DNA of 64,000 nt from Undaria pinnatifida. Taxonomy: Eukaryota; Sar; Phaeophyceae; Laminariales; Alariaceae. The position numbers and the translations under genes are program-made. The notes beneath the pieces are model-generated. The model was not told the origin of the DNA. It saw nothing but the letters and a program-made list of their open reading frames with translations, and did no database searches. Of the stretch, positions 7,018 through 27,580 are shown one piece after another (position 1 is the first letter of the stretch; each line of letters starts with the position of its first letter). The stretch is from NCBI GenBank assembly GCA_012845835.1, contig JABAKD010000019.1, positions 5,060,994 through 5,124,993 of the forward strand. The letters are read 5' to 3'.

Positions 7018-7281
7018 TCACTCCATGGTCTCGTTATCGGCAGCATAACGCCACGCCAAGCAAGCGACAGCCAGCCTCGTGCAAGCCAAGAGATAAAACA
7101 CGAAGTGGCGTTCAAAGGGGTAAGAGCGGTTTCCGTCGATTGAGAGGGCGAAGAGCGTTGAGCAGGCGATGGGAGAAATAGCTCGCGCCAAAGATTCGAT
7201 TGTCACCGAGACACCGTTCAGCTCCCCGCGCCTGCGGCTTCCCGCCGCGTTGTTGGTTGCGAGCGCGAGGCCAACAAAAAA
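7018..7281 (-). CDS. MFS transporter exon 9 (C-terminal, helices 11-12, stop)
   Basis: Encodes residues 427-513 and the TGA stop. The acceptor is AACCAG before a run of six T. It begins FFVGLALATNN and contains the family signature RRGELNGVSVTIESLARAISP (helix 11 entrance), then ALSIDGN, an aromatic HFVFYLLAC helix 12 and a short polar tail ending NETME. The ELNG...SLARA block is typical of ZIFL/DHA1 C-terminal halves. It joins exon 8 in phase 0. Confidence 0.9.
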   Translation of the reverse strand, partial: FFVGLALATNNAAGSRRRGELNGVSVTIESLARAISPIACSTLFALSIDGNRSYPFERHFVFYLLACTRLAVACLAWRYAADNETME

Positions 7282-8069
7282 CTGGTTCGAAGGCAAGCAA
7301 GGTGCGCCGTAGGGTTGGAGGAGAAGATATAACACGTGGCAAAAAAGGGACGGAAGCGAGCAGGCCGATGGGATAACATTGAAGCTGCGATCAACTACGG
7401 GCATTGTTGTGTATGATTATGTTCGCGATTGTGAGACACTGGCGCACCAAGCGAGGTAAAGGAAATGGGTGCAAGGAAGACGAACGACATTTCAACATTC
7501 AGACTTGGATAAACGAGGGGTGTTAACGCGCATAGCTGCTCTTTGCCGTAGAATTCGTCCGTCACGCCAGTGTTTCTCTTCCTATATCGGGGCTCTCTAC
7601 CCCTTCGTCACTGAGAGTAACCTCATTTCTTGCCCACGAGTTTTCCAGTCCCACCAGGGTGGATGTCTAACAAAGACAAGTTAAACTATGTCACTACTCA
7701 TAGGTTGGTGTCTCAGCAGCTGCCGACAACAAACAAATTACACGAAACGAACGAAACGAACGAAACACCTTACAGAACCAGTCGCGTTTGGTTCCCTTGA
7801 AAATAGCAGCGCACACCTAAATAACCGAAATTCAATTTCAAATAAAGTCATGCATGGGGTCGCTTGATTCAGCAAGCACAACCACCACCGCCACACCAAC
7901 ACGATGGAATTCCGCCAGAGTCCGAGGCTATTAATAGCATTGCTGCTCATCTGGCGCGATAGATGGAACCAGATCAGTAACAAAATGGGAAACACCGGGG
8001 TATCGTGAGTAGTTTAGTGTTCGTGCTCGCCCTACTTTTTGACGTCATACCGCGGCCAACACTACCCAC

Positions 8070-8294
8070 CGCATTCGAACCAGCGTAACAGGTCACCAAC
8101 AGGGTCACCGACGTGAAGAAAATAGGTAGCCCATCATTGTTCGCCACCCGAGAGAGCATGGGGAGCAATATATATACCGGGATCTCGACCATTGATCCTA
8201 TCGTTTGAGACGTCTTGACACCCAATCTAGGCGTGACGTACGGCACGACTAATGTCTCCAAGGCCAGCACCGTCAATCCGCACGAAAAGAAGAC
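8070..8294 (-). CDS. MFS transporter exon 8 (helices 8-10)
   Basis: Encodes residues 352-426, exactly 75 codons. The acceptor is CGACAG and the donor GCG|GTGGGT. It contains VFFSCGLTVLALETLVVPY, then the loop TPRLGVKTSQTIG, the second-half equivalent of motif A, followed by a helix with IPVYILLPMLSR and a further hydrophobic span ending CYAGSNA. The sequence reads straight on from WSTPQIGK in exon 7, as in the protein family. Confidence 0.9.
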
Positions 8295-8379
8295 CTGTCG
8301 TGGTAGCCGCGGTGTTGTGGTTAGAGGGGTTGACACGGGAGGGGTCCGCGCGGAAACGACTTGAAGTAATAATAAGCAT

Positions 8380-8690
8380 CATTGTCGTCACCGTCGTCAA
8401 AATAATCGTCATGTTCGTCAACACGTCGTGGTTGTCATCGTCATCATTGGCATCATAATCGTCTACAGTAACAACGTCGCCATCGTGATCTTCACCGTCA
8501 TCACCGTCATCACCATCGTCGTCCTCAGCATCATCACCAGCGTCATGATTATCATCACCATCATCATCATGATCATCACCATCATGACCAGCATGATCAG
8601 CATGATAATGACGATCATTATCATTATCAAACCCGCCATCCTCGCTATCATCCTCATCATCCTCATCACTATCCCTATTAATCGTCAAGC
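8380..8690. repeat. Imperfect trinucleotide repeat (ATC/GTC-rich) in intron 7
   Basis: A ~300-bp run of CATCAT, CGTCGT and ATCATC variants. On the minus strand it yields Asp-rich reading frames and on the plus strand Ile-rich ones; these are artefacts of the repeat. It sits within intron 7 of the MFS gene. Confidence 0.85.
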
Positions 8691-9370
8691 GGTCAAAGTG
8701 CGCCATTCTCACACGCTAAAACTATCGTGTCACGGCTCTACTTGTAGTAACGCGGCGAAACAGTCGCACTCACATCCTGCAATGAATGAGGGGTCTCCCT
8801 GAAACGAGGGAGTGTTATTGATTTCGCACAATACCGCCGTACATAGGCACCCCCTCCGCATCTACTTCTGTTGGACAATGTGGTGCCCGGCGAGTGTTTC
8901 GCACGCATGCTACTCCCGGAGCCTGCACACAAACGTTATGAAGGTCTCTACTCCCGGGGTTAAACATACTACGCCATACACTTAAGTTGAGAGAAACATA
9001 AAAGCCCAGATCGATGGACAACCCGGTAGCTTAGGCGTATCACGAAACCTTTTGATACCAGAAGACGCAAAAGGTTTTGCAAATATGCTGGCTACCGTAG
9101 TTTCGCAGTCGGCTAGGGGAACCCCGTTGGTCGGAAGTAGCTTGACCCTCAAGTGCAGCAGTCCCGCGATAATGCCGGTAAGTGTCAGTTGGAAACACCG
9201 GTGCCCTCGCCGCTACAGCCGACACATTTTTTGCGTCTTGCAACTACAGGGCCGTTCCCACTTGTATGTGCCAAACGGTTTCACAGACACTACAGCGCGC
9301 AACGGGGACTATTCAACCGGCGTTAGAGAAACAACCCTATATCTATCATAGCACGCCTTAACTCACGCAC

Positions 9371-9466
9371 CTTTCCAATTTGAGGTGTTGACCAATCAAG
9401 CCCCCCTTTAGCGGCGCTAGTCAAGGCCCACAGAGGGTAGACCTCGTCGAACCCAGAGTATATGCA
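9371..9466 (-). CDS. MFS transporter exon 7 (helix 7 end and loop)
   Basis: Encodes residues 320-351 in 96 bases. The acceptor is CTCCTCAG and the donor AAG|GTGCGT. The translation runs CIYSGFDEVYPLWALTSA then KGGLDWSTPQIGK. The FDEVxPLW and GLxxxTxQIG signatures are strongly conserved in DHA1/ZIFL transporters at this position. The exon is too short to stand out as an ORF and was found by following the expected protein order. Confidence 0.9.
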
Positions 9467-10497
9467 CTGAGGAGTGTGAACAGCAGCCGCGGAACGCCGA
9501 GGACGGTAGAATACTTGTCAACGGATAGGTTATTCTATTCAAATTACTGTGTGTCGTCCCTGGTAGGGCTAGTCCTTGAGCGTATATGTCATTTGAATGT
9601 GTATGCTGCATCAAAGATAGGAGGAGTTCGAAGCTTGCCGTGGGAATTGTATCCAAAGCTCCTACAGCCTAGTTTGCGCTAAACATCTAGCTGTTTCTCC
9701 CGCACAAATGGCGCTTGCAACATCTAAAACCTTGTCATATATGATGTACCATGTATGCATCCGTGAACAGCGGAAGAGAGTGGCATTGCCAGATGTGAAT
9801 TTTTGGGCTGGGTGGCGATAACGATGGCAAATGTATCTCGACCGAGCACAGGTCGATAATACCTTCTAGTCAGGCACTTTCAGCGAAAGCAACTATTATT
9901 GGCCACGTTGTTCTGACCGGGCTGCTTTCAGTTACTCCACTTCCCTGTAGACTATATAGGCTGTCTACCTTCAACCGTCCCTTTCAATCTCCTGCCCAAC
10001 TCGTAAGCGGTTACACCCTAGACGCCCTTCTGGAGAAGCTGTGGTCACATGTGTCTTTCCTTGGACAGTTCGGTACGTGGCTTCACGTTATCGAGAATTG
10101 AGTGAAATGAAGCACTCCCACGCTTGAGCACAAATCCTCATCAATTTCAACACCGATGGGGACTCTGGGCGTGGAAACCATTCGGGAGGTACATGTCGAA
10201 TCCGCCTGTGGGTGAGTCCCATTTGCTCTCCTAACTTACAAAAACAGCCCCCAGGTTAGAAATAAGACTCTCAAGAAACGCCAAGCGGGAGATACCCTTG
10301 TGCTAGTGGCTACTGTAAAATCTACCCCCGCCATGATAACAACGATGCTATGTTTTAGTGATTGGGTTACACACAATCAGAGAGCTGTGCTACGTGTGAA
10401 CCCGTTGTGCCGGCTCTTTGTCTAACACGCTGAGACCAATCCAACCCTCTCAAGAGAAAATAAAAACAGATGCACATCACACCGCACCGCACCGCAC

Positions 10498-10807
10498 CGC
10501 ATATATTCCGTTCATGAGCAGGAGTACTCGGATGTGCCCCTGAGCCAGCAAGCTTTTCGGCTTGACGTTGTTCTCTTCTTGCCCGAGTACTGCTGAATAT
10601 TTGTTCGATGCATGCTTTTTGTCTGACGGAGGCATCACCGTAGGAAGCACCTCCTCCTGCTTCCTGGACGGCTTTCGGGTATCGGAGTCTTCTAGCGTCT
10701 GCGGAGATTCAGACTCGTGCACAGGCGCGTATTCTGCCGGCACACCGCAGACATTGGTCTTGCCACCATCATTGCCGCTGCGTTCATCACAGTCGCAGTC
10801 AGCGACA
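10498..10807 (-). CDS. MFS transporter exon 6 (central cytoplasmic loop, start of helix 7)
   Basis: Encodes residues 216-319. The acceptor is GGCAGCAG with one base completing a split Thr codon. The donor is GCG|GTGCGG inside four copies of GTGCG, so nearby alternative donors exist. The loop is rich in Glu, Asp, Lys, Ser and Pro and poor in hydrophobics, as expected for the central loop. It ends AQGHIRVLLLMNGIYA, the start of helix 7. The loop sequence itself is unlikely to be conserved and its exact acceptor is the least certain border in the gene. Confidence 0.82.
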
Positions 10808-11989
10808 CTGCTGCCGCCGAGGCAGCACCATGAAGACTGCCAAGGCCGTGCCTTGGGGCTTTAAAGGGGAGAATGCGGGAGGGTTCGACGGAGGCGTCGT
10901 CAGCAGAGGATCGGTGTAGGCCGATCACCAAGAACACCATTGCTGCTATCAACATCTACGCCAGTGCGTCTCTTCATTTTTTTTCTATAAGGAAATATAT
11001 TAGAAGTCGCGTTGGTTCAAGATGGTGGATTGTGACTCGTGCCAGCCATGCAGTGCTGAACAGCATGAAATGGGTTGACTCCGACATTCAGACGTCCTGT
11101 GGTCAAGTGCCACGGTTATAGATTATGCCCTCAATAACGAATGTGACCAATCCCGATGTCTAGGCGCTACTCTGTATCGACTGACCAGCACACAGCTCCA
11201 CTGCCATACAACGCTCTCTAATAGTAGAGTTATCTTCCAGCAGAATCAACGCGGTAGTACAAGAGGCACCAGGCTTCATCCCGCGATTTGACAGCCAAAC
11301 CTATTTGATCATATGTTCAACCGGGTGTATCTCGCCGTCCCTATGCTCCTTCGGAGGACTAGGGATAACCATTGCTGTATTGCATGGTGCTAGGAGTAGC
11401 ACTCATGACGCTCCACTGGCTACACCTACGGGGCACCCATTGGCCTGTAACGCCGAGCAAGTCAACAAGTCAATCGCTGAAATACCGCCAAACACTGAAA
11501 CACGCATATCGCTGAGCTGGTGTTGGCAGTAGAAAGCTTTGTCGGTAAAAAATAGTATATTGTGTGTACCTCGTTGGTATTGCGACCGGGTGTTGTTGTA
11601 GCCCGGCGTAACAAAGCGGGGGCGTTGGGCTCTAGGACCAGCATCGGGGGAGCTGTTCCGTCTTTTGCTAAACGAGACCCGGAAAACACAGCGCTAGGGA
11701 TATGCCAGTCAATCTCGGAGGTCTGGTGTACCCTGTGCTTGCATATCGCTCGTTTCGCTGATAGAACACTCCCGACCCCTAGGGTGTAAGTATGACGTCC
11801 TCCACTCTCCTCCCCTTTGGACCCCGCGATTAACGCCTTCGGCTTGTGGCGTCTCAGAATAGTCACTAACGACGAGCGGTTGACGCTGTACCCGGGGCAT
11901 GTTGTGTCGATACAGCGTTCTATCGCCTGTGAATCTCCCCGGGGGCTACAGGGAAAGGGCAACGGTAGCAACGATGGGGTGAAACTCAC

Positions 11990-12103
11990 GTTGGGTTGAT
12001 GCTGCTTGCAGCGAGCTGGGGGTCCTTCAAGGAGCATAGCACCAGCGGTAGCGCTATGAGTGACAAGCCGGCCCCGACCAGGTTAGGCAGAAGATAGGGG
12101 AAC
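11990..12103 (-). CDS. MFS transporter exon 5 (helix 6)
   Basis: Encodes residues 178-216 (both end codons split). The acceptor is CACACCAG and the donor CCAAC|GTGAGT. The translation starts FPYLLPNLVGAGLSLIALPL, a very typical helix 6 of this family (FPFLLPNLxGA), followed by VLCSLKD and a short polar stretch. It joins exon 4 at a split Arg codon, giving FGR-FPYLLPN. Confidence 0.92.
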
Positions 12104-13689
12104 CTGGTGTGGGTTCGGTGTCACGTGAGCAACGCAAGCAGTATGGGTGCCCGGTATACGTTTTGGTGGTATCCAAACAACTTTGACGCCAATTGAACAA
12201 AACAGATCGTCAGCGGACGGCTATTACACGCCGACAGGGATGGGATAACCCGCACAGAGGCTTGCTACCCACGAACATGCCGCTAGACCGTTATTAAATC
12301 TTTTGAGTATGTATTGCGCACATTCTGCGGTAGGGGTGCACCATTTTTACCCTGAGGCTTTTGATTCGAGAAGGTCTATATCTCACACACAAAGTCAGAT
12401 TTCGAGTGAAGTGAAAGTGCAGACGCATTATCAATCGATGGCCAAGCTGAAACAAAAATGTATAGACTATGGCATAACAACGAATGATTCCGACCTCCTT
12501 GGGTAAAGAGGCCCCGTCATCCAGAAAATGTCCCAGACGAAAAAAACATATCTCTGTCTCACCACACGTTGTTCAACGACTTCTAGCGCGTGCCACAGCA
12601 GACCTCAAGCAAAATTTACTGATGCGTGTTATGATAAGGGGCACAGTGAGTAACCCGGTTTAACAGCAGGCCCACTCCACGGTAAAGTTTCACCGTTGTA
12701 TTATGAGGCTCTCGTCATTCGAGGAGCTCGATACCTCGCCCAGAAATGTATCTTTGAGTAACTTGACGGCGTTTGGGCTGAGCAGCCCAGTTTTTCAGAA
12801 AACGTGTTGGCGAAAACGTCCTCCCTGTAGCGTAGCTCGCGTCGGCACCCGTGAGATACAAGCATCCGAGACTTAAGAGCGATCGAACCAGCATGACCCA
12901 CCGAAAAAACCAAACATTAATTCCAAGTAGGAATAAGATACCTGGTACAAGACAAGGTGAGGTTAAAAAACCTTTCTCTCCCTTGTCACGGGGTGCTCTT
13001 CAACCGGGGTACCTACTGCTGTTGTTGTATTTTTTGGCGGAATGTTGTATAGTTGACGTGGCCTGTCAACTGAGAGACTACCCACTATCATCGGTTTGCT
13101 TTGAGTGGTTTTAACCTCTGGTAGGGTGTGAGCGTGTTTTTAAGGTTAGTTTGGTAGAGGTTGGGTACGCAAATATGTACAAGAATAGTGTTGAAACCGT
13201 CGAACCTACTTTTTCAAGGCCAGCCCATGCCACGAAAATTCCCACTAAACCAGAGGCCAGAAACATGTTTACCTACAATTTTCGTCTGCTTACCTAATTG
13301 CTTCGTGGTTTAGTTGGCCTTGGATTACGATGCACGGCCGTTCCAATGCATTTGATCTATTTCTACATCGCAGTTGAAATTGTCGGAAAACTAAACCATC
13401 AGACCACATTGGCTAACGCTGGTACTCCGGTAAAAAAAGTTGATCGTCGAACTGTGCATCGAATAACCACATTTTTTCTTAACGTTGTTTCGAATGAAGT
13501 ATAAACAGAACCTTGCGGAAAGTTGGTGCACTACTTCACGGTTGAAGGTGTACATTTTTTACGGCCAATCACCGTGATGCGCAGCGTTTTTATTGTAAGC
13601 ACCTGGCCTGAGAAACGCCGACACGTTGTTGCCGCAGACATGCCACACTCCTCGTGGTCGCTCCAGCATACTATATATTACCTTTTTAG

Positions 13690-14800
13690 GCGTGGCGGTA
13701 GAGTTGGGTCGTGCGTGCTGCGTCAGGCATGGCTACCTACGATTCGCGCGTCGTTTTAGGTAGCAGCGGCGGAGCAGCAATGCTTAATCGGGATGCTCGT
13801 GCGCTCAGGCAGGCGCCACCACGAGCCACACTCCGGCGCAGTCTTGGTTTGAGTGGAGGGAACTGCACCGGCAGGAGGCTGGATTCGACGACGAAGGAGA
13901 AGGGCGACTGAGCGTCGACGGGTGGGGAACAGACGGGTCGAACCCTCCCTGAACGAGAACTATTGTTTTTCAGATCAGCACCGCAAGCTGCGAGGAGCGG
14001 TTTGTTTTTTGGTACGGGGGAGAAGGGGAACCGATTAGAATTGAGCGTCAACAACAGCAAGTGCGAATGAGCGGGCCGAGTGAGCTGAGGCGATGAGGCG
14101 GTCATGGAGAACCACAGCAGGAGGATGGCACACGGAGACCCACGACCCGCACGCAAACCATCATCACGAGAGAAGCGATTGTCTTTTTTCAGGATTTTTT
14201 TACGAGGCAGTAGTACAACATGTTGCTTACGTCACTGATTTTTGTAGAGTTGGTACAGTTGTATACCCTTCATGGGGAACGACCCCCCCGCAATTTTCAA
14301 TTTTCAGGCACAGGCATCGTAGCTGCGCCGCAACCTGTCAGATAACTCGGGAAGACGGGGCGATCATTGATATTTGTTAGGTGGGTTTTGGTTCGATTGC
14401 TCTTTTTTCCCTGCATGCCGCGGGTCCTCACTTTGACAGCACTCCAGACAGCAGGCGCATTCGTCTGTGCTCACGAATACCGTGCGGTCCGTACGGTGCA
14501 GGTAGCCCAACCGCTGTAGTTTGTAGCCGCGTGTTGGTTAGTTGTGGGAACGGGGGAACTCTACGCCAAAGTTGAGTGGATACCCGCGGCCATGTGAGTT
14601 CAATTTGCATATTGGATAATTTCACTTGTGCTGCTTCTTCTTCGTATCGTGCGTTTTTAGGCGGGAAAACGAGTATTTCCCGGACGATTTTTCATTTCAT
14701 ATTTGCTTTTTCGGATCTTCCTAGGGCTCCAGCACCTTTGTGTGACCACGGACTACATGTTTGACAAGAGGTAGTGTGAGACAACGACAACAACAACAAC
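13690..14800 (+). repeat. ~1.1-kb inverted-repeat arm (left), in intron 4
   Basis: This arm matches the reverse complement of 22,215-23,285 over nearly its whole length. Shared blocks include the GGCGGAGCAGCAATGCTT region, the ACGAAGGAG...GCGACTGAGCGTCGACGG region, the CACGGAGACCCACGACCCGC block, and a distal TGTGACCACGGACTACATG followed by an ACAACGACAACAAC end. It is clearly diverged (many substitutions and small indels). ORFs inside it are not conserved in frame between the arms, so it is probably a non-autonomous or decayed element. It lies inside intron 4 of the MFS gene. Confidence 0.85.
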
Positions 14801-14868
14801 AACATTAGCAGTACCATCAGAAGATTTTACCATACGTGACGCATAAACTGCACCACATAGATATTCAC

Positions 14869-14974
14869 CTTCCGAATAATCCAAGTTGTGAAAAGATGGC
14901 GGGATGGTGTCTCGCCGGCTCCGCCAACAGTCCACCAACGCCGGGCCCAAGAATACCTCCGACCGTCCAGGAAG
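14869..14974 (-). CDS. MFS transporter exon 4 (helix 5, motif C)
   Basis: Encodes residues 143-178. The acceptor is ACGTTCAG and the donor GGAAG|GTGAAT. It reads TSWTVGGILGPGVGGLLAEP then ARHHPAIFSQLGLFG. GGxLGPxxGG is the helix 5 antiporter motif (motif C), characteristic of proton-coupled exporters rather than of facilitators in general. This is the strongest functional hint in the gene. A longer unrelated ORF overlaps it in another frame. Confidence 0.92.
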
Positions 14975-15021
14975 CTGAACGTTTTGTATAGTCCCGTCAC
15001 AAGAAAGCGAAAACGGTAACC

Positions 15022-15240
15022 GTGGGAAAGGGGGAGAGTGGGTGTGCGGGTTGGTGGCGGGAGCCTAGGTGGATGGATGGGTGGATGCGTGCGTGGGTGG
15101 CTGGCTGTCTGGCTGGGTGGGTGGGTAGGTGGGTGGGTGCATGGGTGAGTGGGTGGGTTACCCGAAGGCTGGTTGGGTGCTGGTTGGGTGATGGCTGGCT
15201 GGGAGAGTGGCTGAACGAAACATGTGCTCAAGCTGGGGGG
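15022..15240 (+). repeat. GGTG/GCTG-rich imperfect repeat in intron 3
   Basis: Runs of GGTGGGTG, GGCTGGCTG and GATGGATG variants cover about 200 bases. G-rich on the plus strand and non-coding. It lies within the 463-base intron 3. Confidence 0.8.
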
Positions 15241-15437
15241 TAGCCACATACGTCTTGGTGAAACGTTATTCTTTTCTACCACCTTGGGCAGCGTTCACGT
15301 CGTCGTCTGAAGTGAAAGGCTGTGATAAAGCAGGCACAGGCTCCAAAATCAGTGTCCAGCTCATGCGGCAACTGTGAAAGACCCGCTGTGTGGGTGGCGA
15401 GACTGTTCGATCAAGTTGTTGTCGCGAGAACACTCAC

Positions 15438-15541
15438 TTGTGACGACTCCCATGCCAATGGTCTCGTGCTCACTGCCACACACTTCGGAAACAAGGGTTC
15501 TGGAAACCACCATCACGCCGTTTAGCAGCCCCAGCAGAAAC
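15438..15541 (-). CDS. MFS transporter exon 3 (helix 4)
   Basis: Encodes residues 108-143 (both end codons split). The acceptor is GCGCCAG and the donor ACAA|GTGAGT. It starts RFLLGLLNGVMVVSRTLVSE, the helix 4 pattern of the family, with the Arg of the RxxxG motif formed across the intron. It continues CGSEHETIGMGVVT. Joining to exon 2 gives FTFRFLLGLLNG and to exon 4 gives VVTTSWTVGG; both are expected family contexts. Confidence 0.92.
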
Positions 15542-15589
15542 CTGGCGCACACGCCATAAAGAGGAGAGGAGAATATTTGAACGACCTAT

Positions 15590-15945
15590 TGCCAACCCTC
15601 GAACATATTTTTCTCTTCTTTCCTTTCTTCATCCCATTTATAATGCTCGCACTCCCTCCCAGTAGTATCTCAGATCTGGGGTCATATGGCAGGCCTTCCT
15701 CCCCCCTCCCCGCTACGGTACGTGCCTTCACTTTTATCGCGAGAATAATTCATAATTTTCTTCCCTCGTCGACTCGTTCGGAATTGTTCCTAGCCACGCT
15801 GTTATAAGTGCTCTCAGTAGTTGATCCTTTTTTCTCTGATATTTTTTGCATTTATTCAAACATTTTCTAAATCTCACTACGGTGGAAATCGAACTCAAGG
15901 ACCAAGGCTAGCAGTATTCGACGGTGACCACGCATTGAACTTAAT
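15590..15945 (-). repeat. tRNA-derived SINE-like element (family S1), intron 2
   Basis: On the minus strand a tRNA-like head has an A-box-like stretch (GCGTGGTCACCGTCGAATAC) and a B-box-like GAGTTCGATTTCC at about 15,885. A body containing TGATACTACTGGGAGGG-type sequence and a pyrimidine-rich tail follow. A second copy lies at 49,540-49,925 with the same order of blocks (CCTCCCAGTAGTAT, TCAGATC-GGGGTCATAT, CCCTCC, TTCCCTCGT, AGTTGATCCTTTT). It is located in intron 2 of the MFS gene in gene-sense orientation. Confidence 0.75.
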
Positions 15946-16840
15946 GTATATTGTCGAGACATAGTCTATACAGTATAAAAATATAACATTGAATTTAATG
16001 CGTATTGCTTTATTCTACATCATTGATTTTTAGTTCCATTTAACTTAGTAAGAGGTGTTACCCCAACGGCATTCTGGACAAGTCGTCGTCGCAGGCGTCT
16101 ACCTTTCTACTTGCCTTCTTTTACGGCGTATAGGGTTCAGCATCCACGTTGTTTTATCAGCCTTGTGTGCTCCTTGAGTTTTTCGCTCGCCAATTCTTAC
16201 GCAAGAATTAACAACACGGTTTACCTCCACACGTCCATCAAGACTTGTTGCTGAGCAAGGCCATCACACGGCCAGGAGGCCAACTTTGAGAACTCGTTTT
16301 TAGGTAAACCGGAGCCATTCGCGCAAGTGTCCACGCACATGGATTGCTTTGCTTTTCGATAGTTATTGCCATCGAATGAATGGTTTGCTACGCTGCACCA
16401 ATTATAAATGGATCGAGTCTGCCATAATTGGAGGTACTTACCCATGCGCGCGTGTGGCTTATACTTGGCGGAGAGAGCCCCCCCCGCTCTCTACCCTAGT
16501 CATGATCACCTTTCTCGCATCTAGTCTTATGATTGTACCCGTGCGCTATTGTTAATAGGTGCATGACAGCATGTCTGCGCGCACCTCATGTTCTAAAACA
16601 ATTTTTTTACTGCAACGTTTTCCTCGGGATATCCTGGTTAGGGGTTTTGGAGTTTATTGTGTACTGCACATTCTCGACAGATAAATACAATAACGTAGTT
16701 GTCCATCCTTTCACAGGGGATCCTTACCTATTAGGTTCAGGCATCTACAGCAGCAATAATGCTGCTATTGTTTTTTTGGGGCTGTATACGAAGTAGCAAC
16801 ATACCCTCCGATATTGTTAAACTTGGTGGGTGTTTCGAAT

Positions 16841-17074
16841 GAATGCATGAAAAGTCTTTAAACAGGTTATGAGTGCACTCTCAGACGGATGACTCGTGAC
16901 GGTCTTCAGACGTTAACACCGAGCCGTCTCGATACGAGCTCGAGCAAATATGACGACGAATGCATGAAAAGTCTTTAAACAGGTTATGAGTGCACTCTCA
17001 GACGGATGACTCGTGACGGTTTTCAGACGTTAACACCGAGCCGTCTCGATACGAGCTCGAGCAGATATGACGAC
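16841..17074 (+). repeat. 117-bp tandem duplication, two near-identical copies (intron 2)
   Basis: Copies are 16,841-16,957 and 16,958-17,074. I see only two differences (C/T in GTCTTCAG versus GTTTTCAG, and A/G in GAGCAAATA versus GAGCAGATA). Each unit contains GATACGAGCTCGAGCA and begins GAATGCATGAAAAG. The near-identity indicates a recent duplication. Non-coding. Confidence 0.95.
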
Positions 17075-18179
17075 GAATTATATGGTAGAGGATCACATCA
17101 AGTGGGCTGTCATTGGGCTAACAAAATGTGATGGTACAAAGAGTTACACACAAGATGTGCGGGACGACAGTGAACTTGGTGTGCGAGCACTCCTGCTCTC
17201 CTTCTCCTCTACCTTAGGCAAACAGTCACCTCGTACTGTAATATCCACTACATAGAACACCCAGGCTAATCTTACGCACGTGAGCTCAGTCAACATTTGC
17301 AAAAGCTTACGCGCGTAACATCAGTTAACATGTTACTCGGTGGAATGTCGTGTCAAAATGTGTGCCCCCTTCCATACTCAACGCAATGAACATAGGCCAG
17401 GCGCTGGACAGCTTACCCAGCACCTGGTACTCTGCACAGCCATTTTAACTATGTAATGGACATGTACCTGGTACTCTGGGTCCCGTGAGGGTTCTGCACT
17501 TTAGTAATCCCAACTAATTGTTGTCGCTTGAGGATGAATATCGTACGAAACATGCTGTTTATAAGTTCAACAACGTGAACGTTTCTTTTATGCAGAACAT
17601 TTCCGCGTGTGGCGGCGTGCTGCAACACGAACCCCCTCCCCGGCTCTTGCATTTCGGCCGGTACGATTGGCTGCAATGGCAATAAATCATGCGTGGTCGC
17701 TGTACCGTATCGTTTTCCCTGCCTGACTACTAAACAATGTTCGATGAACGCCCTCCTATGGTCTGGCAGGGTCGTGAGACTGAGATCCCGTCGCAGCGCA
17801 TACGTGCGATGGAGATACGATTGCCTGAAGCCTGACGCCACGGATGAGTGATCGTCTTGACAACTAGCAACGTAGTCGACTAATCGACACACGACGCGTA
17901 TGAAAATACGTGGAAGTGTGGTGAGCTAAAGCTTTAATTTTCCCCATCCGCCGGAAGATAAAAAAAAAAAAAAAAAAAGTAGTCGACTGTACTCCTTGTC
18001 CGACCAGGCCCTTGCTGAATGCACCCGCCAAACGTTATGCTTCGCTAAGGTAATATTACCAAGATTGCGATTGCTAACCCAAACCGAACCGTGCCCAAGA
18101 GTTTGGCAACAACCCGCTTGAAGTTCAACTATATGGAGAAAATGCTGCGATCGTTAAGTCAACGCGACTTTTAACTCAC

Positions 18180-18363
18180 CTAAAAGTGAAGGCGACTGCG
18201 AATGTTGTCGAACACCCGAACAGCACTGAACAAATGGCGGTTGACACGATGCCGAACACCAGCACGAAGCGCCGGCCCAAACGGTCGGCCACCAGACCCC
18301 AGAAGTGCGAAGAACACAAGCGGCCGATCATGAACGACGAAGACAGCACACCGGCGTAGTATC
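18180..18363 (-). CDS. MFS transporter exon 2 (helices 2-3, motif A)
   Basis: Encodes residues 47-108 (both end codons split). The acceptor is ACCTGTACAG and the donor TTTAG|GTGAGT. It reads GYYAGVLSSSFMIGRLCSS, then HFWGLVADRLGRRFVLVFG and a third helix. G-L-V-A-D-R-L-G-R-R is a textbook MFS motif A, including the Asp and paired Arg needed for conformational gating. GYYAG-x5-F is typical of ZIFL-type proteins. Confidence 0.95.
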
Positions 18364-20087
18364 CTGTACAGGTAAACGTCAGGAGTGTGGGTGGTCTTCT
18401 GATGTGGAGATATGCATGTTCTTACTAGAGCTCAAATGTGTGGGCGATATGCCAATCCCCAGGAGCGCCAATAGTGCAATCGGATGATCAAGAAGTTTGT
18501 AGACAGTGCAGCAGAAAGCTGTAGACAGTGCAGCGGCGGAGTACCCTCGAAAATACGTTAAGTGTGAGGCGTGTGGCAACCGAATGCTCCGAACATCGAC
18601 CGTTCGTATGTCCTAGGGTTTCTGCCGTGGACGCACGCCTGCTCATGTTCGAACAGTGACATATAACCGACGTAAAAGCCTTGGGACGTCGTCGACTACA
18701 ACGTGCATATGGTGTTGCTCTGTTCAACTCTCGGTGGCTACTGATCTATGTGTGCCCGTGTACCGTGCCGGGGATACAACGTTGTTGGCGTTGGTCTCCC
18801 TCGACCACCAGCAAATGTGGAGGCGTGGAAGTGCGTGTTGTGCTCATCGAGTCGAGACAAGCTATAGTTGAGGCGGAACAACTCTTGCCCAATTATTCAC
18901 TGATTCCAAGACAGAATGCGCCCCGAAACCCGCAAATCTGTCACCGAATGTTTCCATGGCTGCTAGACACGAGGAATGATGCTGTAACGTACGCCAGTAA
19001 TAGATTATCTTGTTTGCTGAGGACTATCGAACGATTACTTCAAGGTGGCAAGGAACACCAAAGTAAACGAGATACGGCAAGACAATGGAACTGGTTTTCA
19101 AAACCAGCAATTATATTTATAGAGAAATTCAGGCGGGGTCTACCGTAGAATTACTTCTTGGCGCAGCACGCGCTCTACTGGGTATATACAGCAGCACTAC
19201 TGTACCCACTTTAACCACAAGTCAAGTAACTCAAAATGCGAAGCACGTAGGGCTCCGAACTGAACCTAACAGCACCCAATCCCATCAGCATTGATCTCCG
19301 GGACTCTACCCTCAATGCCTTCGCTCGTGCTACGAGTTCTGAAGCATATATTTAGTTGGTCCTGAGCTGGAATTGAAGTTGATAAGCACTCGCGCCATCG
19401 AAACTGGGCCGCTGAAATAATTTATCCTAAAAGCCGAAAATTGAAGAGCCCTACCGTAGCATTGGTCGCTCTATATGCACCCTCTGGATTGTTGTACCGA
19501 CCTACCTACGCCTGGTAGTGCTTGCCAGCGAATGCCGCTGGTCCATAATATGCTCTACCGTACCAAGTGGATTTCTCCATTCCCGTGCCAACTCCTCCGA
19601 TATGTAGCAGGTGCAGCGTAAGTATATCGATGAGAGTCCGCCGAGGGAACTATTTTGAGGTTGTGTCGCATATAAGATCTGCATGGTCGAACTGATGAAT
19701 AGCAACAATCGATTATTATGCCGCCGCTCCCCTCTGCTTTTCGTACCTGGAACGAATAGATACACCAATTGTTTGTGTCGTCCGACGATATGAAAAAAAA
19801 ATATCAACGCCAACCTATCGTAGCGATTCTTAAAACAAAAAAAGATAACCACGTATGGCCAAGGTCTTTGGAAGAGCGCAGCGCAGGACACTTGGTGAAA
19901 ATAGAAATAATGCCGACCCGGGATGGGTTTCTCGTTCTGGACAGGAGATGTATAACGGCTCCCGGATCCCCTTTCAAGTATACTCTTGCGACCGCCAGCC
20001 CTTGCATAAAAAGCTGATCCTTGCCAATAGTAGGTGTCCTTGGCTGTAGATCCAAACTAAATCTTCTCGCTTTCTGCCTTTAATCAC

Positions 20088-20226
20088 CTGATTCGTCCTT
20101 GTCATCAACAACCCCGAGGTGTTCCACCATGTAGCCGGCGTATGCGAACACGCTCATCTGGACGACCATTGAGCTAACCAGACTGGCCATGATCGCCAGC
20201 ATGGCCACATAAGGAAACGGAGCCAT
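20088..20226 (-). CDS. MFS transporter exon 1 (start, helix 1)
   Basis: Encodes residues 1-47. The ATG at 20,226 is preceded by an in-frame TAA at 20,247-20,245, which fixes it as the first Met of this exon. It reads MAPFPYVAMLAIMASLVSSM, then a continuing hydrophobic span and a loop LGVVDDKDES. The donor is TCAG|GTGATT. It joins exon 2 through a split Gly codon to give ESGYYAG. The short N-terminus leaves open an upstream exon if an alternative frame or start is used. Confidence 0.85.
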
Positions 20227-20423
20227 TTGCAGCACAGGACACCTTTAAAACTGGACAAACAACGATAACAATGAGCATTAGTAAAATTATCTTCATAATT
20301 GAGTCGCCCACGTCCAGCCGTACATGCATAGGCGCGCACGTAAGGGAAAACAGAGAGAACAACACACAACAATAGAACTCTTGTAGGTCTCTCTATTAAA
20401 TTCGTTTGAAAACTGGCATCTAA

Positions 20424-20504
20424 ATGTCTGTGTGTTCGCCTGTCTGTCTGTCCGTCTGTCTGCCTGTCTGTATGTCTGTCTGTGTGTATGTCTGTCTGTC
20501 TGCC

Positions 20505-20600
<96 letters not shown>

Positions 20601-20650
20601 GGTCTGTCTGTCTGTCTGTCTGTCTGTGTGTTTGTCTGCCTGTTTGTCTC
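20424..20650. repeat. CTGT/GTCT tetranucleotide microsatellite
   Basis: About 225 bases of GTCT repeats, with a pure core at roughly 20,502-20,593 and variant units (GCCT, GTAT, GTGT) at the edges. It lies about 200 bases upstream of the MFS gene start, so it may fall in or near its promoter or 5' UTR. Cys/Val/Leu- or Asp/Arg/Gln-repeat ORFs on either strand are artefacts. Confidence 0.97.
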
Positions 20651-20762
20651 GATCACCAAGCTCAAAGGCATATTGCACAACGAACTCTAAACGCACGCGA
20701 CGAGCCAGGAGCGGGATTGACCAGATAAAGGGCAGACGATAATCACGGTGGTTTAACGTCAA

Positions 20763-22214
20763 GTAGTCAATAGTTCGGAGAGGTAGCTCTTTTGGAGTGT
20801 GTTACGTTGGTCCGGATCGGCCTGATGCAGATAATAACAATTCCGTCATGCACGCGGACCGACGAAAACACCATTACTGCCACTCCTCCTATAGTAACGA
20901 AAATTTTGAAGCCGAGGGAGTGGCACCGCCGAAGCTTTAAATTATCCTCTTCGTCGTTGGGTCGCGCACGGACAACAGTACCCCTGATACATATCTAGGC
21001 ACACATGAAAGGTATAAACAGAATAAAACACCGATAAAACGTTTAGAGTATATTTTTTTCATGAATGACGTATGTCTGTATCGCTGGCTGTGTGTCACCA
21101 AGCTCAAACACACATACATTGCATTTCGCACATTGAATCGCTCGCGACAAGCCCGGGGTGGGATTGAGAAACAATATAGCGGGGAAGATGCTCGTGCTGT
21201 GTTTCATATGAAGCCGTCCAGATTTCGGAGAGGTAGCTCGATTTTTGAGTGGCTGTTGGATGGGGTCGGTATGAGCTAATGAAGTTCTGAGGAAATACCG
21301 CCGTGCACGCGAACCGAGAATGAAACCATTACTCCCACCCTTCCATCAACATAGAAGTCATATGATAAGATTTGCCGTTCGAGTATGAAACCCGGGCGCG
21401 GTTACACACTGGCGGTCATGTAGAATGCACTCTCTCCCAGTAATGAAACCCAGTCTGGGTCAGCATTGGTAGTGTTCAGTGCTAGGTGTACAACATAGGT
21501 CACAGGGCTAGGTGCAGTGGGTATGTATGAAGTTCGACTGATGTGCCCCTGTCGCTACTGCGGCTACCGCTGTTTTCTCCTTGTCGCCTACGGCAGTAGC
21601 GCATACACATCTGCATGGAAACCTCGTTATATAGAGACACATGTGGGTTCGATTACAATAACTGACTTACCGGGGACGGGCGTAACGGAGATCTTGTTGA
21701 CGTGGGCATATAGTCAAAGAAGTCTAAACACAGTCCCACAACTGTGCAGATAGGCCCATGCTCCACATGCGAACACAGCAGTACTACTGTAATGTTTCTG
21801 TTACTATAGCTGATCCTGCAATATTGGATGTCACATATTGCACGTTGAAATGTTGGTGGCTCCACGGCCTATGGGGACTTAGCTCACGAGCTCTGAGCCC
21901 AGGCCGTTGCTGTGTGTGCTTTCGCTTGAATTATGCGCTGCATGGTGCGTGTAGTTGTTGGTTTTCGTGCGTTCTTCACCCGATAATTGGACGCCCTCTG
22001 CGTACAATGACCAAGCATGCTCACAACCTCCCCCTTTAAAACATATTGCTTTGAGTATTTGACAGTGTCCGCTGTACGCCGTAAGTTGCATATGGTATGC
22101 GTCTATTGGTTCACTTCCCAACCGAATTCCCTAATACCTTGCTTTCTGTAGGCTGCAGGTTGCCAGGGAATCTGTCGGCCTGCACCGTCTGGCGCAGCAG
22201 CTATAGATACGGCA
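20763..22214. other. No recognised gene; a diverged ~300-bp direct repeat
   Basis: Nothing coding was recognised. Segments 20,640-20,900 and 21,090-21,340 resemble each other: both contain ATCACCAAGCTCAAA, a CGCGACGAGCC/CGCGACAAGCC block, GGGATTGA, TTCGGAGAGGTAGCTC, and a final ACGCGGACCGA/ACGCGAACCGA block. This suggests an old direct duplication. Confidence 0.6.
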
Positions 22215-23285
22215 GTTATCGTTGTTGTCTCACATTAACTCTTGTCAAACCTCTAGAGTCCGTGGTCGCACGGAGGCGCTGGAGCCGTAGGATCTGAAAA
22301 AGCAAATGAAACAAAAATTCGTCCGGGAAATACTGCGTTTTCCCCTAGTACTCACGATACATGAAGGCGCACAAGCGAAATGATCCAATATGCAAACTGA
22401 ACTAACATGGCCGCGCGTGTCTATTCAACTATAGCATGGAGTTCCCTCGTTCCCACATCTGACCAACTCGCGCCTACAAACTACAGCGGTTGGGCTGCCT
22501 GCACCGTACGAACTGCACGGTAATCGTGAGCACAGACGAACACGCCTGCTGTCTGGAGTGCTGTCAGATTGACGACCCGTGGGTATGAAGTAAAAGAAAT
22601 AGCAATCGAACCAAAAACCACCATACAAATGTTAATGATCGCCACGTCTTCCCGAGTTATCTGGCAGGTTGAAGCGCAGCTATGACGCCCGTGCCTGAAC
22701 ATTGCGGGCCATGCAACTTTACGAACTCTACAAAATTCAGTGACGCAAGTAGCATGCACTGTTGCCTGGTAAAAAATACAGGAAAAAGACGATCACTGTT
22801 CTCATGATGACGGGGTGTGTGCGGGTCGTGGGTCTCCGTGTGCCATCCTTCTGCTACGGTTCTCCACGGTTGCCTTAGCTCACTCGGCCCGCTCCTTCGC
22901 AAGTGCTCTCGTGGACACTCAATCCCAGTCGATTCCCCCTTCTCCCCCGTCCCAAAAAGAAATGCGCTCCTCGCAGCTTGTGGTGCTGATCTGCAAAACC
23001 TTTTTTCTCGTTCAGGAAGAGATAAATCCGTCTCTTTCCCGCCCGTCGACGCTCAGTCGCCCTCCTCCTTCGTCGTCGGATCCAGCCTCGTGCCGGAGCA
23101 GGTTTCTCCACATGCAAACCGAGACTGCGCTGTAGTTTGGTTTTGGTGGCGGCTGGCTCCGCGCACGAGCATCCCGATCAAGCATTGCTGCTCCGCCGCT
23201 ACTGCGTAAAACGACGCGCGAATTGTACGTGACCATGCCGAACGCACCACGTACGACCCGACTCTACCCATCCATACGCCTAAGC
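22215..23285 (-). repeat. ~1.1-kb inverted-repeat arm (right)
   Basis: Reverse-complement partner of 13,690-14,800 (see that entry). It begins with a GTTGTTGTCTCAC block and TAGAGTCCGTGGTCGCAC at its left end, and ends in AGAGTCGGGTCGTACG on the minus strand near 23,285. Both arms are diverged, so the pair is not a recent inverted duplication. The arms face each other across 7.4 kb containing MFS exons 1-4. Confidence 0.85.
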
Positions 23286-23289
23286 CTCG

Positions 23290-24690
23290 CCTCCACAAGC
23301 AGCAGCAAGAAGGCATCACTCGTTTATTGTGGATCCGGCCTTGCACCCGCCAGAAAGACCACCCCCCATCGCTTCAAATATGTTAGAGGGCATGCCCTTA
23401 CCGAGGCGGCAAGGGGAACGGAGGTACGGCAGTAATCGCACTTAAAATCATACATACGACGACACAGTCACACGATGCATATGCACACCGGACCAACTGA
23501 ATCATGAATCATTGACCATCAGGCTAGTCTCGCTGAGAAACCGACGGTACAATCTATCGGGAAGTATCCGGTAACGTCGGGTTCAGTTAAGAATGCTAGA
23601 CACTCGAAACCAAAATGCACTTTCGGTGAAACCAGAATCTAACCGAGCCATTTTTGAATTCGGTTCATAACCTTGAGCAGCGGAGGGCACGTGCGTGTAT
23701 ATGCAGCTGGTCAGGACAAGCAGTAGACAGCATAGGTAGTATGCTGTACGCGTAATACAATACAGCGTACGGTCGACTCCCCGTCCGTCAACCGGGTAGC
23801 ATCATACCATTGCCATGCGTAACAACGCAGTCGTACTGGCATTTGGTTCGACCAGTACCACCGCTTGCTGTGTCCTTACGTCGGTGTGCGCCGGGTGGCG
23901 CTTTTACTCGTGGAAATTTTAACTTGAATGCGAGTCAATCACTACTAGATCAAAGCGACCAAGCGGAAGCTTAGCGCAAAAATACATCCGATATTGGCCG
24001 TTGTGCGTATTTTATGTGCCCTTCATTTCAGCAAGGCCTGCTGTGCCACGAGTTGGGTACATAGTATTTGTTATTTTCTGACGGGATACCTACACTTACA
24101 ACACCCTTGTTTACTTGTTGTACCCGTCGATGCACCCTCCCCCATGCGCCCGAACTTGCCACGGGCAGAGGGGATTCTTTAACTACTTTCTACCGTCTTA
24201 CCGAGTGTTGGCCCGCTAACGAAGAGGACACAAATACAAGTGTTCATGCGTCCCCATAATTCGCCAAGGACGCTGTCACAGATGACGAGGGCGTCCAACA
24301 CGGTCGTGAGCCATGTATACATCCCTTCGTCTCCTTCAACCCTCTACCGTCAATTCAATAGGCTAAGCAAGCTGGACAGCATGACGTGGGAGCTAGTTTG
24401 TCTCAGATGACCGGTATGTCACCGCCCAATCAGGATACTTGGTTATTCCGATATATATCGCATTCAAGATCGGTTTGTTTTTATAATGATGGCCGCTCGT
24501 GCCCGTACCTATGGGGCCTTAACTTGCGGTCGATCCGCAAAGGTGCAACCCTGCACTTCACATGCCTCTTAACCAATCGATGTCTCGAACATATTCTCGA
24601 AAGCGCGCCGTGTGGTTTTTCGTCACGAGCGAACGTTTGTAATATGTAGACGCATTATGCAAAGCACACGAGGTATGCCATTTAATCCAG
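23290..24690. other. No recognised gene
   Basis: Several ORFs of 60-90 codons occur on both strands without recognisable domains. No clear repeats were seen. Confidence 0.5.
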
Positions 24691-25050
24691 GCCAGAAACA
24701 AGGGCGGTTTTCACATGTGCTGCACAGGCGTAGTATCAGCGCGGGGTACGGCAGTTGATGATCAAGGCTATGGTAGGGGGGATACCTCCATTTCACTACC
24801 GGATCTGAGCCAGTTGCACGAGTGACTCCGTACCTCGCCGACGAAAACACGTTAGGTCATTTGCTTGGCGCAGCGTAGCTAACCATCCTATTGGAGACGC
24901 ATATCGAGACATTACAACAACGCGAAAGCCTATGACCACAAGACACTCGGGCGTCACTCGCTGGTGATCCCGAGCCACTGTAGAAAAGGGGCCCTGAAAC
25001 AACATTAACTCCCCTACCGTAGCATTGGCCTGACAGTCTGCTGAACATTG
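24690..25050 (+). repeat. Dispersed repeat (family T), copy 1
   Basis: Resembles 36,385-36,700 in the same orientation. Shared blocks include GGGGGGATACCTCCATTTCA / GGATGATACCCCCATTTCA, GCACGAG-GACTCCGTACCTC, ACAACGCGAAAGCC / ACAACCCGAAAGCT, GGTGTCACTCGC-type sequence, GAAAAGGGGCC, and a terminal CCCTACCGTAGCATTGG. That terminal block resembles the ends of the small TIR element at 36,989-37,228, so the two may be parts of one transposon family. Confidence 0.65.
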
Positions 25051-25239
25051 CAAGGGAGCTGTACCAGCTGTACCGTCACATCCTAAAATTACGTAAAAGG
25101 TATTCGGGAGAATATTCCATGTCTTTCACACGTTTTTTCGTCATGCCGTGTGGTAGTGTGCTGCCATGCAGTCGATAAAAGCGCAGATTACCCAGACAAT
25201 CAAGGTCGCCAACCTGCGTGTTCTCGGACAAAGGCGTGT

Positions 25240-25460
25240 ACATAGGCGGATCGTGTGTAGGTTGCAGCCTTGACAGGGCCCATAGTCTTTAAGAGCCCTA
25301 CTGCACGGATTTTGCGATCACCTGACCCCATCAGGGTCTCCACGTCGCACCGTGAGTCAACCATTCAGACCCTGTTCAAAGAACAAACATCAGCAGGGTC
25401 TCTGGGCGGACCCTGTGTAGGTTACAGCATTGGCATGGGCTAGTCTACAGTATGTACAGG
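25240..25460 (+). repeat. CAGGGT/ACCCTG-rich block flanking the tandem array (left)
   Basis: Repeated short phrases such as GACCCTGTGTAGGTTACAGC, TGTGTAGGTTGCAGCC and CAGGGTCTC. Similar phrases recur to the right of the array at 27,590-27,900. Low-level repetition, non-coding. Confidence 0.6.
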
Positions 25461-25649
25461 ACACCTGACAACAACAAGCAGAATAACAAGAAAGGCGGGC
25501 TGATGTTTTCAGGAATGTAAAAAACACGGGATCCGTTGTGTTAGTGTGGAACGCACCCCCTCCCAACGAAAGCAGCCACGGCCGGTATCTCCGTTTCTTG
25601 TTGTTAGGTGTCCCGTACGGTGCACGGACCTCACATGAGACTGAAAATT

Positions 25650-27580
25650 ATAATTAAGGGGCCGTTACAGACGCAGGCCGCCGTTTTCAGGTCTCTCTAC
25701 TAGGCAGCTTACGCGATGGTCACTCACTTGTGCCTGGTACTATATAAGCTTGTATTAGTTCCGCACACGCCACAGACAAACTGAACAGCGTGCAATTCCG
25801 CGAGGCAAACCATCATCCTCTTTTTTCTGCACGCACATGCCTTCAAAGGCACGTGAAGCTCTTTTATATCCAGCTGCATCCCCATATATTACGCCTGTTT
25901 GGCTCCCAGGGCAATACAATAACACTAACCCACCCTCATGAGCCGCATCTGCAGAAACATGGAAGATACGGAGAAGCACCGGTTCCACGGTCTAGAACAA
26001 GACTCGAAGAGGTGGCTCTTCACAACCTACTCCCACACTCTCTACCCTGCGAGTCTACGAATCCTCAGCAAAAATTCTTCAGCAGAAACCCACAAACGAA
26101 GAACGGAAGAAGGGAAAAAGATACAGAACACTCCAGCGAATGGCGGGGTTGACAGGAGCACGACAGCTGTCACGTCCTGCCGACGGCGTCATGCATAATA
26201 ACACAGTATTAAGGGGATGTTACAGACACAGAGGCCACCATTTCCATGTCTCTCTACCAGGCATGTTCCACGTTGGTCACTTACTTGTACTAGATAAGCT
26301 CTTGCGAGTTTTACCCACGCCACGGACGAACCGAACAACGTGCAATTCCGCGAGGCAAACCAGCATCCCGTTTTTCCTATATGCACATGGCTTCAAAGGC
26401 ACGTGAAACGCTTTTGTATCCAGCTGCATCCCATATATTACGCCTTGTTTGCCTCCCAGGGCAATACAATAACACTAACCGACCCTGATGAGCCGCATCT
26501 GCAGAAAATGGAAGATGGGAAGCACCGGTTCCACGGGCTAGAACAAGACCCGAAGATTCGGCTCTTCACAACTTACTGCCACACTCTCTACCTTGCGAGG
26601 CTACGAAGCCTCAGCGTAAATTCTAAAGCAGAAAACCACAAACGAAGAACGGAAGACGGGAAAAGGGTTCAGAACACTCTCCAGCGAATGGCGGGGTCGT
26701 CAGGGGCGCGAGAACTATCACGTCCTGCCGACGACACGATGTAAAATAAGATTAAGGGGCTGTTGCAGACACAGAGGCCACCATTTGCAGATCTCTCTAC
26801 TAGACAGGTTCCACGCTGGTCACTCGCTTGTACTATAAATAGAGAAGCTCTTGTATTAACTCCACACACCCCACGGACGAACTGAACGACAGCGTGAAAT
26901 TCCGAGGCAAACCATCATCCCCTTTTTCCTGTACGCACATGCCTTCAAAGACACGTGAAACTCTTTTATATATCCAGCTGCATCCCATATATTACGCCTC
27001 GTTTGGCTCCCAGGGCAATACAATAACAGTAGCCCACCCTGGTGAGCCGTATCTGCAGAAATATGGTAGACTCGAGGAAGCACCGGTCCCACGATCTAGA
27101 ACATGACTCGAAGATATGGCTCTTCACACCCTACTCCCACACCTCTACCCCACGAAGATACGAAGCGTAAGTGAAAATGCTACAGCAGAAAACCCCAAAC
27201 GAAGAACGGAAGACGGGGAAAGGGTACAGAACACTCCAGCGAATGGCGGGGTCGACAGGGGCACGTAAGCTCTCACGTCCTGCCGACGACGCCATTCATA
27301 GTAAGATTAAGGGACCGTTACAGACACAGAGGCCATCATTTGCATGTCTCTCTACTAGGCAGGTTCCACGTTGGTCACTCACTAGTGCTAGATAAGCTCT
27401 TGTGTTAGTTCCGCACACACACGCCACGGACGAACTGAACAGCGTGCAGTTCCGCGAGGCAAACGCATCATCCCCTTTTCCTATACTCTCACGCCTTCAA
27501 AGGCATGTGTGACCCTTCATATCCAGCCGTATCCATTATCGTACGCCTTGTATGGCTCCCAGGGCAATACCATAACAACT
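25650..27580 (+). repeat. Tandem array of ~550-bp units (family C), three full and one partial copy
   Basis: Units begin near 25,650, 26,206, 26,751 and 27,306 with ATTAAGGGG...TTACAGACACAGAGGCC and contain, in order: TCTCTCTACTAGGCAGGTTC; a TATA-like box with start of transcript context (TACTATATAAGCT in unit 1); CCACGGACGAACTGAACA; CGCGAGGCAAACCATCATCC; ATGCCTTCAAAGGCACGTGA; CCCAGGGCAATACAATAACA; AAACGAAGAACGGAAGA; and CGAATGGCGGGG. Each unit has an ORF of 70-134 codons sharing an IQLHPIYYA-SQGNTIT core, but indels not divisible by three break the frame differently in each copy, so coding is doubtful. A fifth, partial copy lies at 63,590-63,745. Confidence 0.9.

Follow-up and report, generated by a model that had tools for sequence, protein, structure and literature searches.

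The minus strand of a 64-kb window of the Undaria pinnatifida genome (the window being the whole stretch of DNA analysed, 64,000 nucleotides) very likely carries a nine-exon eukaryotic gene for a predicted 12-helix MFS transporter of the DHA1 type, a presumed proton-coupled exporter whose pattern over its whole length is nearest to that of plant ZIFL proteins among the sequences compared. The nine exons (Table 1), running from 20226 to 7018, were rebuilt from the DNA and joined into a frame of 1542 nt, i.e., 513 codons plus a stop, with no internal stops. All eight introns begin with GT and end with AG, and the phases are consistent throughout. Intron lengths range from 463 to 2765 bp, with a mean of 1458 bp (n = 8, computed from the rebuilt model), and the GC content at third codon positions of the joined frame is 65%, compared with an intron GC of 49%. 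The preliminary description had joined nine blocks into one 513-codon frame across eight GT/AG introns of matching phase, and the rebuild gave the same model; its estimate that about 12% of a 13.2-kb gene is coding agrees with the 11.7% measured for the 13,209-bp gene.

Table 1. Exons of the transporter gene and other features observed in the window (m numbers denote rice ZIFL motif blocks).
Feature	Position	Strand	Content
Exon 1	20088..20226	-	ATG, helix 1 and start of TM1-2 loop; ends in phase 1
Exon 2	18180..18363	-	Helices 2-3 and start of 4; motif A WGLVADRLGRR; best six-frame matches of m3, m9 and m7
Exon 3	15438..15541	-	Helix 4, RFLLGLLNG; best match of m6
Exon 4	14869..14974	-	Helix 5, antiporter motif C GGILGPGVGG; second-best match of m6, best match of m2
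Exon 5	11990..12103	-	Helix 6; m2 score rises across exons 4 and 5
Exon 6	10498..10807	-	Variable acidic TM6-7 loop with DCDCDE, and most of helix 7
Exon 7	9371..9466	-	End of helix 7, FDEVYPLWALT; best match of m1
Exon 8	8070..8294	-	Helices 8-9 and start of 10; best match of m5
Exon 9	7018..7281	-	Remainder of helix 10, helices 11-12, stop codon; best match of m4
Tandem duplication	16841-17078		In intron 2; 117-bp unit, 98% matches
TGTC array	20425-20649		Tetranucleotide, 56 copies, ~200 bp ahead of the ATG
PF25597	3463-4038	+	Retroviral polymerase SH3-like domain, E 4.6e-14; probably a retrotransposon fragment
PF21530	43431-44066	-	Pif1 helicase 2B domain, E 3.8e-10
PF01541	54154-54609	+	GIY-YIG nuclease domain, E 1e-05

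The Pfam MFS_1 profile (PF07690) matched the joined protein at 113.2 bits, against a cut-off of 33.4, with residues 13-463 aligned to positions 3-347 of the 347-position profile. Among the peptides of exons 1-5, scanned one at a time, that of exon 2 was the only one to match Pfam at an E of 1 or less, and the C-terminal half taken by itself stayed under the Pfam cut-offs (MFS_1, 21.7 of 33.4 bits; MFS_2, 23.5 of 27 bits). As an outside test, ten rice ZIFL motif blocks, as listed in Table 2 of PMC3041735, were compared with the six frames of the window, with a tolerance of 3 bases at the exon borders for the block ends. For eight of the ten, the best six-frame site in the 64 kb fell on the proposed exons and in the correct order; the remaining two blocks, m11 and m10, failed in this respect. 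None of 25 simulated windows with the same dinucleotide frequencies reached the scores of the eight exon-matching blocks, the narrowest margin being that of m2 (51 vs 49). On the spliced protein, the same eight blocks beat all 200 shuffles, while m11 and m10 did not rise above them.

Splicing raised the block scores at several junctions: m3 from 54 to 79 across exons 1 and 2, m6 from 82 to 133 across exons 3 and 4, m2 from 51 to 83 across exons 4 and 5, and m1, slightly, from 66 to 69 across exons 6 and 7. Two further junctions are supported only by the close or gap-free adjacency of neighbouring blocks in the concatenated alignment (m7 and m6 at exons 2 and 3, m1 and m5 at exons 7 and 8), and the borders between exons 5 and 6 and between exons 8 and 9 were placed by phase and GT/AG only. 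The least certain parts of the model, and its weakest, are the N-terminus with the start codon, the acceptor and the donor of exon 6, and the border between exons 8 and 9. It is accordingly quite possible, if short of probable, that the gene is right and one or two of its borders are wrong, through an extra 5′ exon, another acceptor of exon 6 or another of its tandem donors, a reading that is compatible with our best explanation.

At the 5′ end, the predicted start codon lies three residues ahead of the first hydrophobic window, and ZIFL proteins, according to the available text of PMC3041735, have an N-terminal cytoplasmic loop bearing a Cys motif. A stop in frame 19 bases ahead of the ATG argues against a longer N-terminus unless a splice acceptor intervenes; an AG is present between this stop and the ATG, which leaves room for a 5′ exon. 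On the other side, a search of 20227-26000 in all three reading frames of the minus strand did not find the Cys motif C-[PS]-G-C. Exon 6 consists mostly of an acidic loop outside the coverage of the rice blocks, and the segment 10858-10552 contains six phase-compatible AGs, the chosen acceptor at 10807 included. The donor of this exon sits in a GTGCG tandem repeat (10481-10497) that offers four GT sites, at +0, +5, +10, and +15. Use of the +5 or +10 donor breaks the frame, so that exon 7 is read with stops, while the +15 donor is in frame and adds five residues; since the +0 and +15 donors both keep the frame, two protein forms differing by five residues are possible. Counted by hand, m1 is ungapped across exons 6 and 7 with the +0 donor, which speaks for the chosen border, although the program's concatenated alignment was gapped there.

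With regard to family, 16 hydropathy windows of 19 residues were listed, and the 12 highest are compatible with twelve helices, two of these windows being weak (1.11 and 0.88). Hydropathy is lowest at helices 2 and 5, yet both border or carry conserved motifs. Motif A, at residue 68, follows the Trp-led MFS signature W-G-x3-D-[RK]-x-G-R-[RK], and the generic form of motif C, G-x8-G-x3-G-P-x2-G-G, is present in helix 5 at residue 139 (GVVTTSWTVGGILGPGVGG). Motif C is linked to antiport. The generic motif C and the five ZIFL signatures were used here as defined in the available text of PMC3041735. Together with the full-length MFS_1 match, the motifs at residues 68 and 139 uphold the earlier assignment of the protein as an MFS transporter with motif A and a helix-5 antiporter motif. 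The N-terminal half also passed the cut-off of the Sugar_tr profile (43.8 vs 22.3 bits, residues 42-156), so a Pfam match alone cannot single out DHA1.

The rice ZIFL blocks, when concatenated, reached a BLOSUM62 score of 448 on the spliced protein, compared with 104, 78, and 90 on three remote bacterial MFS proteins. Block by block, nine of the ten scored higher here than on the bacterial proteins (m9 and m10 by a margin of 1), and m11 tied with their best. These comparators came from a search with a 104-aa core (exons 2-4), which had 513 pattern matches in genome_contigs, three of them confirmed, each of these a locus of a remote bacterial MFS protein with 29-32% identity over the core; in viral_contigs, none of 31 pattern matches to the core was confirmed. 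A query with all 513 aa brought up 22 pattern matches in genome_contigs and 1 in viral_contigs, none of which was confirmed as a relative. Literature searches on ZIFL-like genes of stramenopiles or brown algae brought up a single paper, PMC8450595, listed as dealing with sugar transporters.

Of the five ZIFL signatures, the Trp-led MFS signature is present. The antiporter signature with a leading Ser, S-x8-G-x3-G-P-x2-G-G, is absent from the spliced protein, whose first residue at this site is Gly; C-[PS]-G-C is absent from the 513-aa protein, the N-terminus of which may be incomplete; the His motif [PQ]-E-[TS]-[LI]-H is absent from the TM6-7 loop; and the TM8-9 loop motif [RK]-x2-G-P-[IV]-x3-R is absent, RLGV being found at residue 374. 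With the Cys, His, and TM8-9 signatures missing and Gly opening the antiporter signature, assignment as a ZIFL in the strict sense is not supported. The DHA1/ZIFL assignment of the preliminary description thus stands as far as ZIFL-like similarity over the whole length is concerned, but not for ZIFL membership proper. Judged from its sequence, the transporter probably works like a DHA1/ZIFL exporter, yet is not to be filed as ZIFL.

A generic DHA1 drug:proton exporter with no specific kinship to ZIFL is a rather unlikely alternative, for which the Gly of motif C and the best database matches nonetheless speak. The top NCBIfam match was the Tet(A)/Tet(B)/Tet(C) model at 63.9 bits, far under its cut-off of 475, and the top PDB match was NorA (E 8.7e-12, N-terminal half). 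The block scores given above weigh against it, with the limit that the comparison comprises only three bacterial proteins, neither NorA nor Tet(A) being among them. That the gene is a pseudogene or a silent MFS relic, as the mobile-element-like fragments within the window might suggest, is very unlikely in view of 513 stop-free codons, eight phase-matched GT/AG introns, raised third-position GC, and the intact state of motifs A and C.

The setting of the gene was also considered. Of 308 stop-to-stop stretches of at least 75 aa, 73 were dropped as lying inside the gene or being of low complexity, and a Pfam scan of the 150 longest of the 235 left gave three matches at E up to 0.001 (Table 1). 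An Rfam scan of the 64-kb window returned no family at gathering score. GC content per 2-kb stretch of the window varies from 42 to 53%. According to the available text of PMC6507550 and PMC6418280, Saccharina japonica has a mean intron length of 1203 bp, 4.63 introns per gene, and a GC content of 48.72%, Ectocarpus has a mean intron length of 704 or 740 bp and ~7 introns per gene, and brown-algal genes are commonly large and rich in introns. The intron sizes and GC content observed here are compatible with a kelp-like genome. The gene had been called hidden, which is fair for a reading based on open reading frames, but such a structure is ordinary in intron-rich algal genomes, as these same sources describe them. 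We conclude that the nine-exon gene is very probably real and ordinary.

How the DHA1-type exporter would work can be outlined from family knowledge. ZIFL proteins are described as antiporter-type exporters in the available part of PMC8747725, which makes proton-coupled export the likeliest mode; the reported substrates of plant ZIFL proteins include mugineic acids, nicotianamine, potassium, and caesium (PMC8747725, available part, and partly general knowledge). The protein would most likely operate by rocker-switch alternating access, with protons moving one way in antiport, and would carry its substrate, such as a small organic ion or a metal chelate, out of the cell or into the vacuole. By analogy, we reasonably infer proton-coupled export of chelates, ions, or drugs, as had been proposed. 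A bolder proposal, that the protein represents a ZIFL sister branch outside land plants, in which the Cys and His metal motifs are missing, the acidic, Cys-bearing TM6-7 loop (DCDCDE) has come to sense metal in their stead, and the tandem GTGCG donors at helix 7 give two in-frame forms differing by five residues, appears most improbable; DCDCDE would be lost if exon 6 started at 10777 or later. A true ZIFL sister group outside plants, if such it were, would help to establish when the metal-binding motifs of the plant ZIFL proteins arose. The result is mainly one of annotation, in that borders, phases, and motifs can recover a transporter even where short exons defeat a reading based on open reading frames. 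As far as its sequence tells, this MFS transporter gene is a further member of a very common, already known family, and appears distantly like plant exporters of metal-binding compounds.

Among known systems, NorA resembles the Undaria protein in the N-terminal half, with the best stretch at residues 41-178, and differs in that the match is confined to this one stretch. The Tet(A)/Tet(B)/Tet(C) model is likewise similar in the N-terminal half (residues 43-171), but its score lies far below the model's own cut-off. MFSD10 (PDB 6s4m), which was among the PDB matches at E 6.7e-08, is similar over residues 40-180, the sole reported stretch, in the N-terminal half. Plant ZIFL proteins (ZIF1, ZIFL1, and TOM1) differ from the Undaria protein, which is without their Cys, His, and TM8-9 motifs and has Gly in place of the Ser that opens the antiporter signature, but share with it the MFS_1 domain, the Trp-led MFS signature, motif C in helix 5, a TM6-7 loop that is both long and variable, and, for eight of the ten rice blocks listed in PMC3041735, colinear similarity.
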